64,000 bases of DNA from Pseudomonadaceae bacterium (GTDB lineage: Bacteria; Pseudomonadota; Gammaproteobacteria; Pseudomonadales; Azotimanducaceae), in NCBI GenBank assembly GCA_024743435.1, contig JANSWO010000003.1, positions 248,001 to 312,000 on the forward strand, read 5' to 3'. The position numbers were made by a program, and so were the translations under genes. Below are positions 50,551-56,502 of the stretch, piece after piece; position 1 is the first letter of the stretch; each line of letters opens with the position of its first letter. The notes below the pieces were generated by a model. The model was not told where the DNA came from and searched no databases. It saw only the letters and a program-made list of their open reading frames with translations.

Positions 50551-50717
50551 AGGATCTCGAGGCTCTTTGCGGTTTGCCCCATGGGCGGTCACGGCAGTAT
50601 AAACGGGCTGCTCTGCCAGGGAGAGGTTCGGTCGCTGGACATGAGCCATCTCATTGCCCTTGCGCTGGCCATCGTACTGGGTTGACACTGACAACTACCC
50701 AGACAGAAAGGATTGCC

Positions 50718-51758
50718 ATGCCGTGGCAGTTTGTCGAGATGTACGGGCAATCTAACGTTGCCGACTACGTTATTGAGCGAGCGCTGACTGCGCACAGTCA
50801 GCTGTTGCTCGCCTGCTCGGCTGCAGCACACCCCAAGTCCCGGCGCGCCACCATGACGTCGGACAGCCAGGATGCCAAGGCAACCCTCGATGAACGAGCG
50901 GAACGGGAGCGTCCGATGCTTGCCCGAATCTGCGCGACTCGCCAGGTCGTTGCGGCCTGTTGGTGGACGCTGTCGGAGGGTATTGATCCTGAAGTAGTCG
51001 CGACGGCGAAGGATCGAGATGCCCAACTCGCCGAAGTACTAACGGGCTTGCAGGTGCTGCCTGCGTCTGCGGACCTACTGGCAGATATTCATGATGCGAC
51101 GGTAAAGGCGAAAACCCGGTCTGCTTTGTCCCGAGTTCTTGAGCGCTATCGCTCAAACCCAGCCACGGCAGCGGGCGCCAATAGCGGACATCCAGATGCG
51201 CCCGGCGACGAGGAGTTGACCGATCTCGCGGTTGCGTGGTCCGAATCCGACGCGGCTGCCTGGCGCGACATAAATGGTGTGAGTGGCGTGACAGTTGACG
51301 GTGGTGTGTTCGCTAGTGACAGCTTGCTGCACGCGTTCGATCGAGGCGCATTCAGAGCTCAGCGCTGGCTGGCGAAACCTAAACGGAAGCACGCGCGCAA
51401 GCTGCTCAAGCACGCCCGGCGATTAGGCTGGCAACTGGCACTACTGCGCGAAACGCTCGGGGAGCAGAATCGTGCGCTCGCGTGGTACACAGACAAGCTG
51501 GTGGCTGAACTCGAGGTGCTCGGCACGATTGACGAGGTATTGCACTCGGATGCCGTGACGCGCGAGGAGGGCAAGGATGCTCTACGGGTGCGCAGTGCGC
51601 TCGATGCGCGCTCGGCGCAAGTGAGCGAACGGATCGAGAAACTAATCGCACGAGTCTATGGTCAAAGCAGAGGCGAACTGGCGACACGGCTGGAAGATGA
51701 GATCGCCGCCCTGGATGTCGACCGGCAGATTGTGCTCGCGGCGCTGAACGCGACATAG
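50718..51758 (+). CDS. CHAD-like domain protein
   Basis: A 346-residue helical, basic protein. AAAGGA precedes ATG 50718. The C-terminal half has KPKRKHARKLLKHARRLGWQLALL followed by ALAWYTDKLVAELEVLGTIDEVL, the repeated His/Arg/Lys helix pattern of CHAD domains, which bind polyphosphate. The N-terminal half may be the first CHAD repeat (LLADIHDATVKAKTRSALSRVLERY). No CYTH domain is present. The match is by eye only; a divergent all-helical protein of other function is possible. Confidence 0.55.
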   Translation: MPWQFVEMYGQSNVADYVIERALTAHSQLLLACSAAAHPKSRRATMTSDSQDAKATLDERAERERPMLARICATRQVVAACWWTLSEGIDPEVVATAKDRDAQLAEVLTGLQVLPASADLLADIHDATVKAKTRSALSRVLERYRSNPATAAGANSGHPDAPGDEELTDLAVAWSESDAAAWRDINGVSGVTVDGGVFASDSLLHAFDRGAFRAQRWLAKPKRKHARKLLKHARRLGWQLALLRETLGEQNRALAWYTDKLVAELEVLGTIDEVLHSDAVTREEGKDALRVRSALDARSAQVSERIEKLIARVYGQSRGELATRLEDEIAALDVDRQIVLAALNAT

Positions 51759-51850
51759 CCGTGCTGGCTCACGTCCAAGTTGCCACTAAACTGCAATCGT
51801 AGACGTCAATAATCCGGGATATGAAAACTCGGGATAGACAGGGAGATCGA

Positions 51851-52504
51851 GTGAAAAGGATAAAACTGCATCTCGCCGCCTTGGGCATAGCCGCCCTGGC
51901 AGCTGGCTGTGATGATCAGGCAACTGTGGCAACAACGCCCTCAGTCGTAGATGCGCCCGGGCAGGTGGCGGATGTGCAACCAGTGTCGTTTGAGGCCAGC
52001 TATGCCCAGGCCTGGGGGCCGGCAATTGGCGCGCCTATGCCACTGCTGGATGCACCTGATCAAAACGGTGACCAACGCAACCTCGCGAGCCTCTCTGGCA
52101 GTCATGGCCTGCTGTTGTTTCTCAATAGAAGTGCGGATTGGTGACCCTTCTGCAAGCGTCAGTTCGTGCAACTGGCACAGTGGCAGGATCGATTCGAGCA
52201 GCTGGGTGTCAATGTCGCTGGCATGACCTACGACAGCGAAGAAATACTGGCGGCCTTCCACGACACCGAAGGGCTTGAGTATCCCTTGCTCAAGGACGTT
52301 GAACAACGCCACGTAAGCGCGTTGGGTGTTCTCAACGAAGACTATGGACCGGGCCATGCAGCATTTGGCGTGCCGCACCCAGGCATTGTTTATGTCGACG
52401 CAGACGGTATCGTGCGCGCAAAGTTTGCAGCGCAAGGCTATCGTAGCCGGCCTTCCTTTGAGGCCGTGTACGCCGCGATCAGTGAGATACGCGGCGGGCA
52501 GTAG
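51851..52504 (+). CDS. thioredoxin-fold (AhpC/TSA-like) lipoprotein with in-frame TGA (putative selenocysteine)
   Basis: A 217-residue AhpC/TSA-like protein read through an in-frame TGA at 52142-52144 (residue 98). Both sides are one family domain in one frame: AIGAPMPLLDAPDQNG before, VNVAGMTYDSEEILAAFHD and PHPGIVYVDADGIVRAKF after. The context RSADW-TGA-PFCKRQF is where homologues have WCPFCK, so the codon replaces the first redox Cys, giving UxxC. A SECIS-like hairpin follows. GTG 51851 (GGGAG site) gives a lipobox, ALAAGC; an ATG at 51821 is alternative. Expected role: thiol peroxidase or disulfide reductase in the envelope. Conventional gene finding would split or drop it. Confidence 0.85.
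52148..52188 (+). promoter_or_regulatory. candidate bacterial SECIS element
   Basis: Starting 3 bases after the TGA: a lower stem 52148-52153 with 52183-52188 (one T-G pair), an internal loop, then a 7-bp upper stem GTCAGTT (52158-52164) with AACTGGC (52170-52176, one T-G pair) closing the loop CGTGC. The loop begins 20 bases past the TGA and has G in position 2, matching the known general form of bacterial SECIS hairpins. Confidence 0.65.
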
Positions 52505-52664
52505 CAGCTCGAACCGATGGTATAGACGGGGGACGCCTCTCGGAGCTTGAGTCTCTGGCAGGTGTCTCGGCCGCGCGCTTTGTCGTGTTTGCAGCGCGAT
52601 CACGCCAGGACCAATAGCCTGGCGCGCCAATTGATCTCGAACAAAGAGAAAAAGGACTAGCAAC

Positions 52665-53588
52665 GTGTTTGTCGGATTGTCTTCGTTACGCTCAACAACC
52701 GGGAAGCTGGCCAAATCCGTGCGCGGCTTGTGTAGCCGGCGCCAGATCACGCTTGTGCTTGCCGGTATGTCGATGCTCATCCTGAGTGGCTGTCAAACCG
52801 TTATCGGCACCGTTGCCGGTGGTTTGGCGTCTGATCTTTCTGATGCGATTCTGAACAGTACCGACCCGGAACTGGTGCGTGAGGCTGCACCTGCCTATCT
52901 GTTGCTCGTAGACAGCCAGCTCAGCGAAGGCGGCTCGCCGGAGCTGCTCGGCCAGGCCGCATCGCTGAACGGCGCCTATTCGGCTGCTTTTGTCAGCGAT
53001 CCGGAACGTGCCCGAAAGTTTGCTGAGAAAGCGCTCGCCTACGCCGAGCGTTCGGCTTGTGGCGGGCTGAAGAACGCCTGTGATTTGCGTAGCCGTGACT
53101 TTGCGCTGTTTGAAGAGTGGGTAGCAACCATTGAGCTGAAGCACGTGCCGATGGCATATGTGCTGGCGACCAGCTGGGCCGGCTACATTCAGGCGAACGC
53201 AGATGATTGGGCAGCAATTGCGGAGCTGGCTAGAGTTAAGGTGTTGATGGCCAGAGTAGCGGAGCTGGATGAGACCTACGACAACGGCGGTCCTCACCTC
53301 TACCAGGGTGTTTTTGAAACCCTGCTGCCACCCGCTATGGGAGGTCGGCCGCAAAAAGGGCGCGAGCATTTCGAACGTGCCATTGCGATCAGTGATGGCA
53401 GGCACCTGATCGCCAAAGTTTACTTCGCGCGCCAGTATGCGCGGCTCGTGTTCGACCGGGAACTGCACGATGAATTGCTCAACGAAGTGCTTTCAGCTGA
53501 CGTTAATGCCCCGGACCTTACGTTGACGAATACGATTGCCCAGCAACAGGCACGAGAATTATTGGAGACCGCAGATGAGTATTTCTAA
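52665..53588 (+). CDS. TatT-like TRAP-associated lipoprotein
   Basis: A 307-residue lipoprotein. GTG 52665 is 9 bases from AAAGGA. Signal with lipobox LILSGC ends near residue 44. The mature part is an all-helical TPR-like repeat protein of the TatT family (LVREAAPAYLLLVDSQLSEG, DDWAAIAELARVKVLMARVAELDETYDNGGPHLYQGVFETLLPP, HFERAIAISDGRHLIAKVYFARQYARLVFD). TatT trimers bind the DctP receptor in Treponema and may gather ligands. It overlaps dctP by 14 bases, strong support for a shared complex. Confidence 0.85.
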   Translation: MFVGLSSLRSTTGKLAKSVRGLCSRRQITLVLAGMSMLILSGCQTVIGTVAGGLASDLSDAILNSTDPELVREAAPAYLLLVDSQLSEGGSPELLGQAASLNGAYSAAFVSDPERARKFAEKALAYAERSACGGLKNACDLRSRDFALFEEWVATIELKHVPMAYVLATSWAGYIQANADDWAAIAELARVKVLMARVAELDETYDNGGPHLYQGVFETLLPPAMGGRPQKGREHFERAIAISDGRHLIAKVYFARQYARLVFDRELHDELLNEVLSADVNAPDLTLTNTIAQQQARELLETADEYF

Positions 53589-54672
53589 CCCAGCACAATT
53601 GTCCTGCCCTGGCAGCGCCGGTGGATACCGGCGCTTGGGCTGGCTGGCGGCGGTCGTGCTGGCTCTGTCGGCGTACGCGCCGCTGTCGTTTGCAGCCACA
53701 CTCAAGATCGCCACCGTATCACCCGAGGGTTCGATGTGGATGAACTCCCTGCGGGCGGCGGGCAAAGACATCGAAGCGGCAACGGATGGCCGGGTAAAGC
53801 TCAAGTACTACCCCGGTGGCGTCATGGGAGACGACAAGGTCGTCCTGCAGAAGATTCGTCGCCGGCAGCTGCACGGAGCCGTTATGACGGTCGGTGGGCT
53901 CGCAGCAACCAACACCAACATTCAGCTGTACAGCTTCCCGCTGCTGTTCAACAGCTATGAAGAAATTGACTACGTTCGAGAGCGTATGGATTCTGCCTTG
54001 CTTGCACAGCTCGCAGAAGATGGTTTCCGGGCTTTTGGCTTTTCGGAAGTGGGTTTCGGCTACGCGATGACGAAGACTCGAGCGAGCAGTGTCGAGGACA
54101 TGCGTAAGCGGAAAGTCTGGATTCCAGACGATGACAAGGCGAGCGCACAGGCGGTTGCGGCATACGGTATCACTCCAGTGCCGCTGTCTATTGCTGATGT
54201 TCTGGCAGGGCTGCAAACCGGGCTGATCAATGCGGTAGCAGCGCCGCCCGTCGGGGCACTTGCTCTGCAGTGGCACACCCAGATCGAACACGTTCTCGAT
54301 CTACCGTTGCTGTACGTGTACGGCGTTGTAGCCATTGAAGACAAAGCGTTTTCTAAGCTATCGCCTGCTGATCAGGCAATTGTCAGCGAGAAACTTGCGG
54401 GCGTCGTGCGCGCTGTGAACACACAAACCCGGCTTGATAACGCTCGAGCGCGACAAGTCTTGATTGATCAGGGTCTTGCCTGGCACAGCGCGAGTGATGC
54501 GGAGCTGGAAACCTGGCAGGATCTTGCTCGCGTTGCATCGGATAAGCTGATCGAAGCGGGTGTGGTTGAATCGGAACTCTACCTGGAGATGATGAGACAT
54601 CTGGGAGATTTCCGACGCTCGCAAACCGCCGGGTCAACTGGCGATCCAACCGCTGAATCGACTGGGCAGTAA
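53575..54672 (+). CDS. TRAP transporter substrate-binding protein (DctP)
   Basis: A 365-residue periplasmic DctP. ATG 53575 has GGAG upstream. After a signal peptide (LGWLAAVVLALSAYAPLSFA) come TLKIATVSPEGSMWMNSLRAAGKDIE and the receptor middle (TRASSVEDMRKRKVWIPDDDKASAQAVAAYGITPVPLSIADVLAGLQTGLINAVAAPP), with Arg in the KRKVWIP strand that usually binds a carboxylate. A Ser/Thr-rich tail of about 25 residues is extra. Ligand not identifiable. Member of the TatT-dctPQM operon. Confidence 0.92.
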   Translation: MSISNPAQLSCPGSAGGYRRLGWLAAVVLALSAYAPLSFAATLKIATVSPEGSMWMNSLRAAGKDIEAATDGRVKLKYYPGGVMGDDKVVLQKIRRRQLHGAVMTVGGLAATNTNIQLYSFPLLFNSYEEIDYVRERMDSALLAQLAEDGFRAFGFSEVGFGYAMTKTRASSVEDMRKRKVWIPDDDKASAQAVAAYGITPVPLSIADVLAGLQTGLINAVAAPPVGALALQWHTQIEHVLDLPLLYVYGVVAIEDKAFSKLSPADQAIVSEKLAGVVRAVNTQTRLDNARARQVLIDQGLAWHSASDAELETWQDLARVASDKLIEAGVVESELYLEMMRHLGDFRRSQTAGSTGDPTAESTGQ

Positions 54673-54703: not shown

Positions 54704-55222
54704 ATGAAATTCATCCGTGGCCTGGAGACAGGCGTGCTCGTGCTGCTGTTATCCAGCATGTTGGCGCTTGCTGCCTATCAGGTCCTCGCCAGAAACTTCT
54801 TTGATGGTGGCATTCTGTGGGGCGATGCGGCGGTGCGAGTCATGGTCCTGTGGGGCGCGCTGCTGGGTGCGATGGTCGCGGCGCGCGCTGACGAACACAT
54901 ACGGATCGATCTGCTCACCCGCTATGCCAGCCCAGGCGTTGCGCTGGCGATGCGTCGGCTGACGAGCGCCTTCACCACGATTGTTTGCGCCCTCGTTGCC
55001 TACTACAGCGGCATCTTTGTGATTGATGAACGCAGCTATGGCGAAGTGGCATTTGCCGAGGTTCCGGCGTGGATATGTCAGGCGATTGTCCCTGTCGGCA
55101 TGGGATTGATAGCGCTCAGATATCTTGGCCACACGATCTCACCACCGCCGCTTCCGCAGCCGGTTAGTGCATCGGATGCCGCAAAGGATACGGCGGCTGA
55201 CGAGTCGAGCCCGGCGCAATGA
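54704..55222 (+). CDS. TRAP transporter small permease (DctQ)
   Basis: A 172-residue four-helix membrane protein: helices around 7-27, 42-62 (AAVRVMVLWGALLGAMVAA), 88-108 and 130-148. ADEHIRIDLLTRY is the conserved DctQ segment between helices 2 and 3. Last 25 residues are an acidic tail. It overlaps dctM by 4 bases (ATGA), so the two permease chains are translationally coupled. Confidence 0.92.
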   Translation: MKFIRGLETGVLVLLLSSMLALAAYQVLARNFFDGGILWGDAAVRVMVLWGALLGAMVAARADEHIRIDLLTRYASPGVALAMRRLTSAFTTIVCALVAYYSGIFVIDERSYGEVAFAEVPAWICQAIVPVGMGLIALRYLGHTISPPPLPQPVSASDAAKDTAADESSPAQ

Positions 55223-56502
55223 TTACGCTGCTTGTCATAGTTGTTGTTATTGCGGCCATCGCCGGGGCGCCGCTGTTTGCGGTCATGTTGGCAGCCGCGC
55301 TCATCGGCTTCCTTGCCGGCGACATCGATCTGTCGATCATCGGTGTCGAGCTGTATCGACTGACGGACACGCCGCTGCTGCTCGCGCTACCGCTGTTTAC
55401 TTTTGTCGGCTATCTGCTGGCGGAGGCAAAAACATCCGAGCGACTCGTGCGCCTAACTCTGGCGGCACTGGGTTGGCTGCCGAGCGGACTGGCGATTGTG
55501 GCGCTCATGGCATGCGCGATCTTTACCGCATTGACGGGTGCAAGTGGCGTCACGATTATCGCTTTGGGTGCATTGTTGCTGCCCTCGCTCCTCAAAGGTG
55601 GTTACGACGAGCGCTACGCACTGGGCCTGGTCACATCGAGTGGTTCACTCGGCCTGCTCATCGTGCCGTCGGTGCCGCTAATCCTCTACGGCATCGTTGC
55701 GCAACAGCTGGATGTGGGGCCGACATTCACGTTGCAGGAGCTTTTCATCGCAGCGTTGTTGCCCGCAGGATTGATGATCGTTCTGCTCGTTGCCTGGACG
55801 CTCTGGCGCTTCCGCCACGGCGAAATCAAGCGCACGCCGTTTCGGTGGTCCGAGTTGGCTGGGGCGTTGTGGGAGGCCCGTTGGGAGTTGCCGCTGCCAA
55901 TAGTCGTGCTGGGTGGAATCTACAGCGGTTACTTTGCGATATCGGAGGCGGCCGCGGTCACGGCGTTTTACGTCGTGATTGCCGAAGTAATTCTATATCG
56001 CGACGTTGCGTGGCGTGAGCTACCACGGATCATGACGGAATCCATGGTCATGGTGGGCAGTATCCTGTTGATTCTCGCCGCGGCCATGGCCTTCACGAGC
56101 TTTCTCATCGATGCGGAGATTCCGCAGACGGTCTTTGATTTCGTGCGAGCGCATGTCGATGACGCGATCACCTTCCTGATTCTGCTCAACATACTCCTAC
56201 TGCTGCTTGGCGCGTTCCTCGATGTGTTCTCCGCGCTGGTCATTATGGTGCCGTTGCTGCTGCCGCTTGCAGTGGGCTATGGAATTCATCCAGTGCATCT
56301 TGGCATCATCTTCCTTGCGAATATGCAGATCGGTTACCTCACGCCGCCGGTGGGTATGAACCTGTTTATCGCGAGTTACCGCTTCAAGCGTCCGATCACG
56401 GAGCTCTACTCAGTGAGCTGGCCGTTCCTGTTGGTGCTGCTGGCGGCGTTGATGCTGATCACCTACGTCCCCGCCATATCGCTGATGTTCATCACCGACT
56501 GA
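55219..56502 (+). CDS. TRAP transporter large permease (DctM)
   Basis: A 427-residue large permease with twelve or more hydrophobic segments. PLFTFVGYLLAEAKTSERLVRL, FTALTGASGVTIIALGALLLPSLLKGGYDERYALGLVTSSGSLGLLIVPSVPLILYG and IFLANMQIGYLTPPVGMNLFIASYRF are the three diagnostic DctM stretches, the latter two lining the sodium sites. It moves the DctP ligand with sodium. Its stop is 24 bases from the convergent PAS/GGDEF/EAL gene. Confidence 0.95.
   Translation: MITLLVIVVVIAAIAGAPLFAVMLAAALIGFLAGDIDLSIIGVELYRLTDTPLLLALPLFTFVGYLLAEAKTSERLVRLTLAALGWLPSGLAIVALMACAIFTALTGASGVTIIALGALLLPSLLKGGYDERYALGLVTSSGSLGLLIVPSVPLILYGIVAQQLDVGPTFTLQELFIAALLPAGLMIVLLVAWTLWRFRHGEIKRTPFRWSELAGALWEARWELPLPIVVLGGIYSGYFAISEAAAVTAFYVVIAEVILYRDVAWRELPRIMTESMVMVGSILLILAAAMAFTSFLIDAEIPQTVFDFVRAHVDDAITFLILLNILLLLLGAFLDVFSALVIMVPLLLPLAVGYGIHPVHLGIIFLANMQIGYLTPPVGMNLFIASYRFKRPITELYSVSWPFLLVLLAALMLITYVPAISLMFITD

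Follow-up and report, generated by a model that had tools for sequence, protein, structure and literature searches.

An in-frame UGA, very probably read as selenocysteine, in a peroxiredoxin-like UxxC gene upstream of a TatT-TRAP transporter cluster

Peroxiredoxin-like selenoproteins with a UxxC motif have been on record since 2005, when a Prx-like family whose UXXC replaces TXXU was described from the Sargasso data (PMC1088965). The GOS study of 2008 gives a family Prx-like 1 (pfam00578, UxxC) with 225 selenoproteins (PMC2398784). A 2026 study lists a 'Prx-like thiol:disulfide oxidoreductase' (PF00578; UxxC, UxxU) as a prediction of high confidence and, in its Table 1, a Redoxin family UxxC selenoprotein assigned to PF08534 (PMC13188914). 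Here we compare with these systems a gene found in a window of 64,000 nucleotides (the whole stretch of DNA that was analysed).

The first-pass annotation had placed a single TGA at the first position of the CxxC motif of an AhpC/TSA protein, and its coordinates (52142-52144) were exact. Translation of the frame 51851-52504 gave this one TGA and no other stop before the TAG, and the read-through motif is R93-S-A-D-W-U98-P-F-C101-K. The 217-residue read-through protein scored 81.3 bits against PF00578 (cut-off 26) and 46.3 bits against PF08534 (cut-off 26.6). The PF00578 match covers both sides of residue 98, in agreement with the earlier statement that the domain runs on across the TGA in the same frame. 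The mechanical list of open reading frames splits the gene into pieces of 107 and 112 residues, which makes it a clean example of a selenoprotein hidden by its UGA and cut in two by standard ORF calling. We put the probability that the UGA is read as selenocysteine, and that the gene encodes a selenoprotein, at roughly 95%. This reading, already proposed in the first-pass annotation, draws on a TGA at the same codon in relatives, a covarying hairpin and the sel genes of the genome. Coordinates of the features are collected in Table 1.

Table 1. Features of the predicted selenoprotein gene and of the genes downstream of it (window coordinates).
Feature	Position	Strand	Details and basis
Shine-Dalgarno-like AGGGAG	51840-51845	+	5 nt upstream of the GTG; sequence reading
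Predicted selenoprotein gene	51851-52504	+	217 residues with Sec98; GTG start at 51851, TAG stop at 52502-52504
Putative signal peptide with lipobox	51851-51910	+	L16-A17-A18-G19-C20, then Asp21-Asp22; translation, by eye
AhpC-TSA (PF00578) domain	52025-52420	+	residues 59-190; profile match, predicted peroxiredoxin fold
UGA codon, probable selenocysteine (Sec98)	52142-52144	+	sequence, translation, comparison with relatives
Cys101, UxxC partner	52151-52153	+	matches the peroxiredoxin peroxidatic Cys in alignments
Putative bacterial SECIS hairpin	52158-52176	+	stem 52158-52164/52170-52176, loop CGUGC 52165-52169; comparison and folding
Pro177, at the thioredoxin-fold cis-proline place	52379-52381	+	homologue conservation; presumed cis-Pro role
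TatT-type protein (PF16811)	52665-53588	+	238.1 bits, lipobox-like Cys43, frequent neighbour; profile match
TRAP solute-binding protein DctP (PF03480)	53536-54672	+	profile match
TRAP small permease DctQ (PF04290)	54704-55222	+	profile match
TRAP large permease DctM (PF06808)	55219-56502	+	profile match

Relatives were searched in a sample of 58 genomes (threshold E 1e-10) and in a family sample of 206 genomes (E 1e-15). The gene was matched in 31 of the 58 relatives, and 34 of the 36 matches listed carried one TGA; the remaining two were a copy with TAG and TAA (G015:C49) and a fragment from G002 that covers residues 140-208 and stops short of the codon. A homologue was present in 157 of the 206 genomes of the same bacterial family. 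The 150 family matches listed comprised 148 with TGA alone, one with TGA plus TAA and one with TAG plus TAA, and no uninterrupted copy was among them. Position was verified on loci rather than on each of these 150 matches: 29 of 30 loci checked, from 29 genera, had the TGA at the same codon, and the thirtieth is a decayed copy. Since the TGA recurs in this way, a sequencing error is untenable, and the misread base that the first-pass annotation had named as a possible fault is ruled out by a TGA in 149 of the 150 family matches listed. A class-wide sample gave a match in one of 369 genomes (E 1e-15), the gene's own; few genomes of the same order were sampled, and the result says little beyond the rarity of the gene in the class. 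The TGA is thus kept across the family as far as listed, which offers testable hypotheses on the roles of exported selenoproteins.

In all, 105 loci were scanned, and 100 passed E 1e-8 (L003 and L122-L125 failed). W[UC]xxC was found with U in 29 of the 100 and with C in 68. It was absent from three: an ordinary peroxiredoxin paralogue with Thr at this place (L002), a decayed copy (L033) and a partial locus (L116). Homologues found elsewhere have Cys at the place of the TGA, as had been expected, encoded by TGC in 38 and TGT in 30 of the 68 loci, partly by construction of the set: the Cys loci were fetched in part by an ADWCPFCK pattern and then chosen for W[UC]xxC, so that the ratio of U to C and the constancy of W97, residue 98 and Cys101 are not natural frequencies. 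Residues outside the selection pattern were also constant. R93 was invariant (97/97), R200 was found in all 95 sequences with a letter there, and Pro177 was kept in all but one of the 29 Sec homologues and in 60 of the 68 Cys ones. In a tree of 95 of the 97 rows (two short rows were dropped), 26 of 29 Sec rows fell on one side of a branch with support 95/81; the other three, on long branches, stood beside or among Cys rows, and three changes were needed.

We then turned to the hairpin. The earlier description of SECIS-like geometry, with the loop 20 bases past the TGA and G at loop position 2, was accurate: the hairpin has a 7-bp stem with one G-U pair and a loop of 5 nt, and in loop, stem, G and spacing it agrees with the bSECIS rules published in PMC13188914. 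The hairpin alone folds at -5.7 kcal/mol and 40 nt with flanks at -8.6, and the limit of -7.5 given in the same source lies between the two. Against shuffled sequences the bare 19-nt hairpin stood out (z = -2.48); a 52-nt fold was unremarkable (z = +0.21) and a 70-nt fold preferred a different structure. Folding of the single sequence, which is not significant with flanks, was dropped as proof of a SECIS element. An Rfam search of 51500-53000 returned one chance-level match only (isrG, 12.9 bits, gathering score 100).

The significance of the hairpin comes instead from comparison across Sec sequences. The five pairs of the core stem were complete in 28 of 29 Sec sequences, the gene's own included, and Watson-Crick throughout in 26. 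When synonymous codons were resampled (2000 trials), complete stems averaged 10.3 with a maximum of 19, and Watson-Crick stems 5.2 with a maximum of 13. Sec stems interchange between CAGCT/AGCTG, CAGTT/AACTG, CAACT/AGTTG and CAATT/AATTG. In the Sec alignment 90.1% of cells were paired versus 75.4% after shuffling, 32 cells carried a double change versus a shuffled mean of 10.6, and the covariation score was 0.420 versus 0.163; for each of these, none of 500 shuffles was as high. Two of the five covariation measures were unexceptional, namely the number of pairs with a double change (4; 108/500 shuffles) and of further pair types (9; 97/500). Pairing fell to at most 43.3% when the stem partner was slid, and RNAalifold recovered the same stem from the Sec alignment.

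Cys sequences served as a control. Four of 65 distinct Cys sequences were fully paired (resampled mean 1.5, maximum 6); in an alignment of 40 of the 68 Cys loci pairing was 48.9%, equal to shuffles, and RNAalifold predicted no pair. Of the 29 Sec sequences, 28 have GU as the second and third loop bases, versus 10 of 65 distinct Cys sequences. At the protein level, Val106 occurs in 28 of the 29 Sec proteins and in 10 of the 68 Cys proteins; the apparent reason is that the GU of the loop comes from its GTN codon. Covariation thus backs the putative SECIS element even when the null is a protein-coding one, and the element seems to limit the choice of residues in the protein.

The selenium machinery, which the first-pass annotation had proposed to look for elsewhere in the genome, was found in full. 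Contig C14 carries, within about 10 kb and all over curated cut-offs, selA (119048-120355; 523.8 bits), selB (120394-122208; 362.9 bits), a tRNA-Sec gene (124772-124860; 77 bits), also called as tRNA-SeC by ARAGORN, and selD (within 128443-129330; 259.8 bits). The selD match is part of a 728-residue frame with a Pyr_redox_2 domain at 27-313 followed by AIRS domains, and resembles the Ndh-SelD fusions mentioned in PMC2398784. The same frame was seen as locus L126 (11357-13543, minus strand), near selA-selB-selC, with the pyridine nucleotide-disulphide oxidoreductase domain first. Given the UGA, the covarying SECIS and these genes, decoding would follow the mechanism known from other bacteria, in which SelB with Sec-tRNASec would bind the hairpin immediately downstream of the UGA, so that selenocysteine enters at residue 98.

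Of the 31 relatives in which the gene was matched, 28 have selB over cut-off, compared with 8 of the other 27 (Fisher p = 2e-6). Common descent may explain this figure, because within the family the association (27/30 versus 5/7) was not significant (p = 0.23). The gene-bearing genomes in which selB over cut-off was not found, G015, G017 and G027, are drafts of 85-91% completeness.

The same genome has 13 AhpC-TSA matches, and four of them contain one TGA. L178 (G000:C17:60162), with the TGA in WAPYUGC, passed the WAxxUGC selenoprotein model NF041054 with 472 bits (cut-off 300) and adds to the case for selenocysteine in this genome; L179 (G000:C2:40981), with WSSWUGC, reached 237.5 bits and fell below that cut-off. 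L177 (G000:C17:83354-83716 region) is peroxiredoxin-like, with a TGA in FTGGUTLQC at a TxxU-like place and an apparent signal peptide ahead of the redoxin; its best NCBIfam match is thiol peroxidase (78.2 bits, under the cut-off of 140). L177 is a probable further Sec redoxin of this genome.

At the N-terminus, reading LAAG-C20 by the lipobox rule suggests that the product would be exported and lipid-anchored at Cys20. In E. coli, Asp after the lipidated Cys suggests retention in the inner membrane, and here C20 is followed by two Asp. Among the Sec homologues examined, a lipobox was visible by eye only in the window gene (L001), L030 and L041, and most others, also by eye, start with an ordinary signal or an anchor. 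The earlier label 'lipoprotein' therefore suits these three and does not extend to the Sec group as a whole.

We next considered what the exported domain may do. AlphaFold2, given the window protein and 43 Cys homologues, produced a model with a mean pLDDT of 84.4 (residues 10-12 and 17-43 under 50). Foldseek and VIA-align placed peroxiredoxins on top (3hjp_A: E 2.2e-12, Z 22.3, 2.5 A over 158 residues), and the 50 structural matches listed were all peroxiredoxins or close kin, with ResA-type chains absent among them, a point given no weight here. The peroxiredoxins that the model resembles are of the BCP/AhpE type. By single sequence, the best PDB matches were ResA-type thiol-disulfide proteins, and a profile search gave BCP-type proteins first and ResA next. 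In the alignment with solved peroxiredoxins, Cys101 falls on the peroxidatic Cys and residue 98 on the Thr of TxxC. That Thr is replaced by the UGA-encoded residue in the window gene and by U or C in all 97 loci, a set selected for W[UC]xxC; the same column holds Trp in the decayed copy L033, and Thr only in the paralogue L002. The region of the peroxiredoxin catalytic Arg, as we take it to be, is mostly H/Y176-P177 in the sequence alignments.

The peroxiredoxin-like domain would thus carry a Sec98-Cys101 redox pair, and we lean towards a periplasmic thiol:disulfide oxidoreductase acting through this pair, because of the position of residue 98 at the TxxC Thr, H/Y176-P177 in the Arg region and the ResA sequence match. 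A peroxidase, in which one of the two residues attacks peroxide and the other resolves in the manner of atypical peroxiredoxins, is a possible though clearly less probable function. The structural match to BCP/AhpE-type enzymes (Z about 22) and the alignment of Cys101 with their peroxidatic Cys speak for it; the same three features that favour an oxidoreductase speak against it.

A further possibility concerns the neighbourhood. Twenty neighbourhoods were fetched from 18 of the 31 gene-bearing genomes. The whole TatT-DctP-DctQ-DctM cluster lay directly downstream on the same strand in 10 of them, once beside a decayed copy, and TatT lay 3-5 kb along in two more. When the 26 genomes with both genes were compared, the redoxin gene was directly upstream of TatT in 12 (one of these a decayed copy) and within 5 kb in two; in the other 12 the genes were farther apart or on other contigs. 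At the 69 Cys-type loci (L053-L121) the cluster was absent within flanks that reached at most 4 kb. TatT has a Cys pair in all 25 of the 25 genomes that carry the Sec gene, and in 4 of 5 that do not (30 loci examined of 35 matches). As a redoxin-specific partner this pair was rejected: it is kept to much the same degree where the Sec gene is missing, and singles out no substrate. Neither Pfam nor NCBIfam gave a match at E 0.001 for the upstream ORF (50664-51755, same strand). A scan of 51700-52720 gave no promoter-like site and two terminator-like matches inside the gene, with 1.0 expected, and tells nothing about whether the gene and the TRAP cluster are transcribed together.

These data make it conceivable, though we consider it unlikely, that the redoxin serves the TatT-DctPQM transporter as an accessory, for instance by maintaining a thiol or disulfide of its lipoprotein in the proper state. 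The downstream clusters, the 12 adjoining pairs and the conserved Cys pair of TatT point in this direction. Against it stand the 14 genomes in which the genes are separated, the Cys pair in genomes without the Sec gene, the Cys-type loci, and genome G015, which retains the transporter beside its decayed Sec gene. We regard as similarly doubtful the wider proposal that an envelope-anchored selenoredoxin, with Sec throughout the sampled family, would form a working unit with TatT-TRAP whose Sec-Cys pair guards or gates the periplasmic side. If true, it would tie selenocysteine chemistry to TRAP uptake, a link for which no paper turned up in the literature searched. The partial synteny is a fresh lead and yields a testable hypothesis on exported selenoproteins.

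The decayed copy (L033, also L146; G015:C49) bears on how the UGA itself is read. It stands upstream of the TRAP cluster as elsewhere, has TGG (Trp) at the Sec site with TAA and TAG farther on, and keeps the five core hairpin pairs, one of them G-U. Its genome (91% complete) is among the three drafts named above in which selB was not found, and holds a second, distant TGA copy. Of the 20 neighbourhood loci, 19 keep the part 3' of the TGA as an open, conserved frame; this copy is the exception. That the UGA is a true stop, with the downstream part a relic or separate gene, is accordingly most improbable: the standard code and the unremarkable folding energy with flanks would allow it, but the conserved 3' part, the domain on both sides and a TGA at one codon across 29 genera contradict it. 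A selenium-free decoding, in which a suppressor tRNA would insert Trp or Cys, is equally improbable, since in the data examined only the aligned Cys of distant homologues and the Trp codon of the decayed copy suggest it, and the genome has tRNA-Sec, selA, selB and selD, with the SECIS loop and stem conserved in TGA genes and not in Cys genes.

The selenocysteine reading places the gene among described systems. On published features, the predicted product is a member of the known Prx-like UxxC selenoproteins (listed representative WP_010940744.1), with which it shares PF00578, UxxC for TxxU, a bacterial SECIS and Cys homologues (PMC1088965, PMC2398784, PMC13188914). The first-pass term 'new selenoprotein' thus holds for the individual member and fails for the kind, which has been reported since 2005, and the picture of selenoprotein kinds is unchanged by this gene. 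The literature searched on lipoproteins, export and TRAP transporters gave nothing on the window gene, and no NCBIfam model passed its cut-off with the window protein, which therefore belongs to a subfamily without a dedicated model there.

Several likenesses and differences set the protein in place. It differs from the Prx-like UxxC selenoproteins as described in its predicted export with a lipobox and in the TatT-TRAP neighbour of some relatives. With the Redoxin UxxC selenoprotein (PF08534) it shares UxxC and a score over cut-off, but PF00578 scores higher here. The SelL-related redox protein model (NF040769) gave a weak match only (32.9 bits, cut-off 120); SelL has UxxU and the window protein UxxC. 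The WAxxUGC selenoprotein model (NF041054) gave 19 bits against a cut-off of 300, and the motif here is UPFC. Sec-peroxiredoxins (TxxU) have the same fold and the same place for the second motif residue, but Sec would here occupy the Thr position and not the peroxidatic one. Finally, ResA/TlpA oxidoreductases share a WCxxC-like motif and Pro at the presumed cis-Pro place, whereas in the window protein the first Cys would be Sec and the predicted fold is nearest, among the matches listed, to BCP/AhpE peroxiredoxins.
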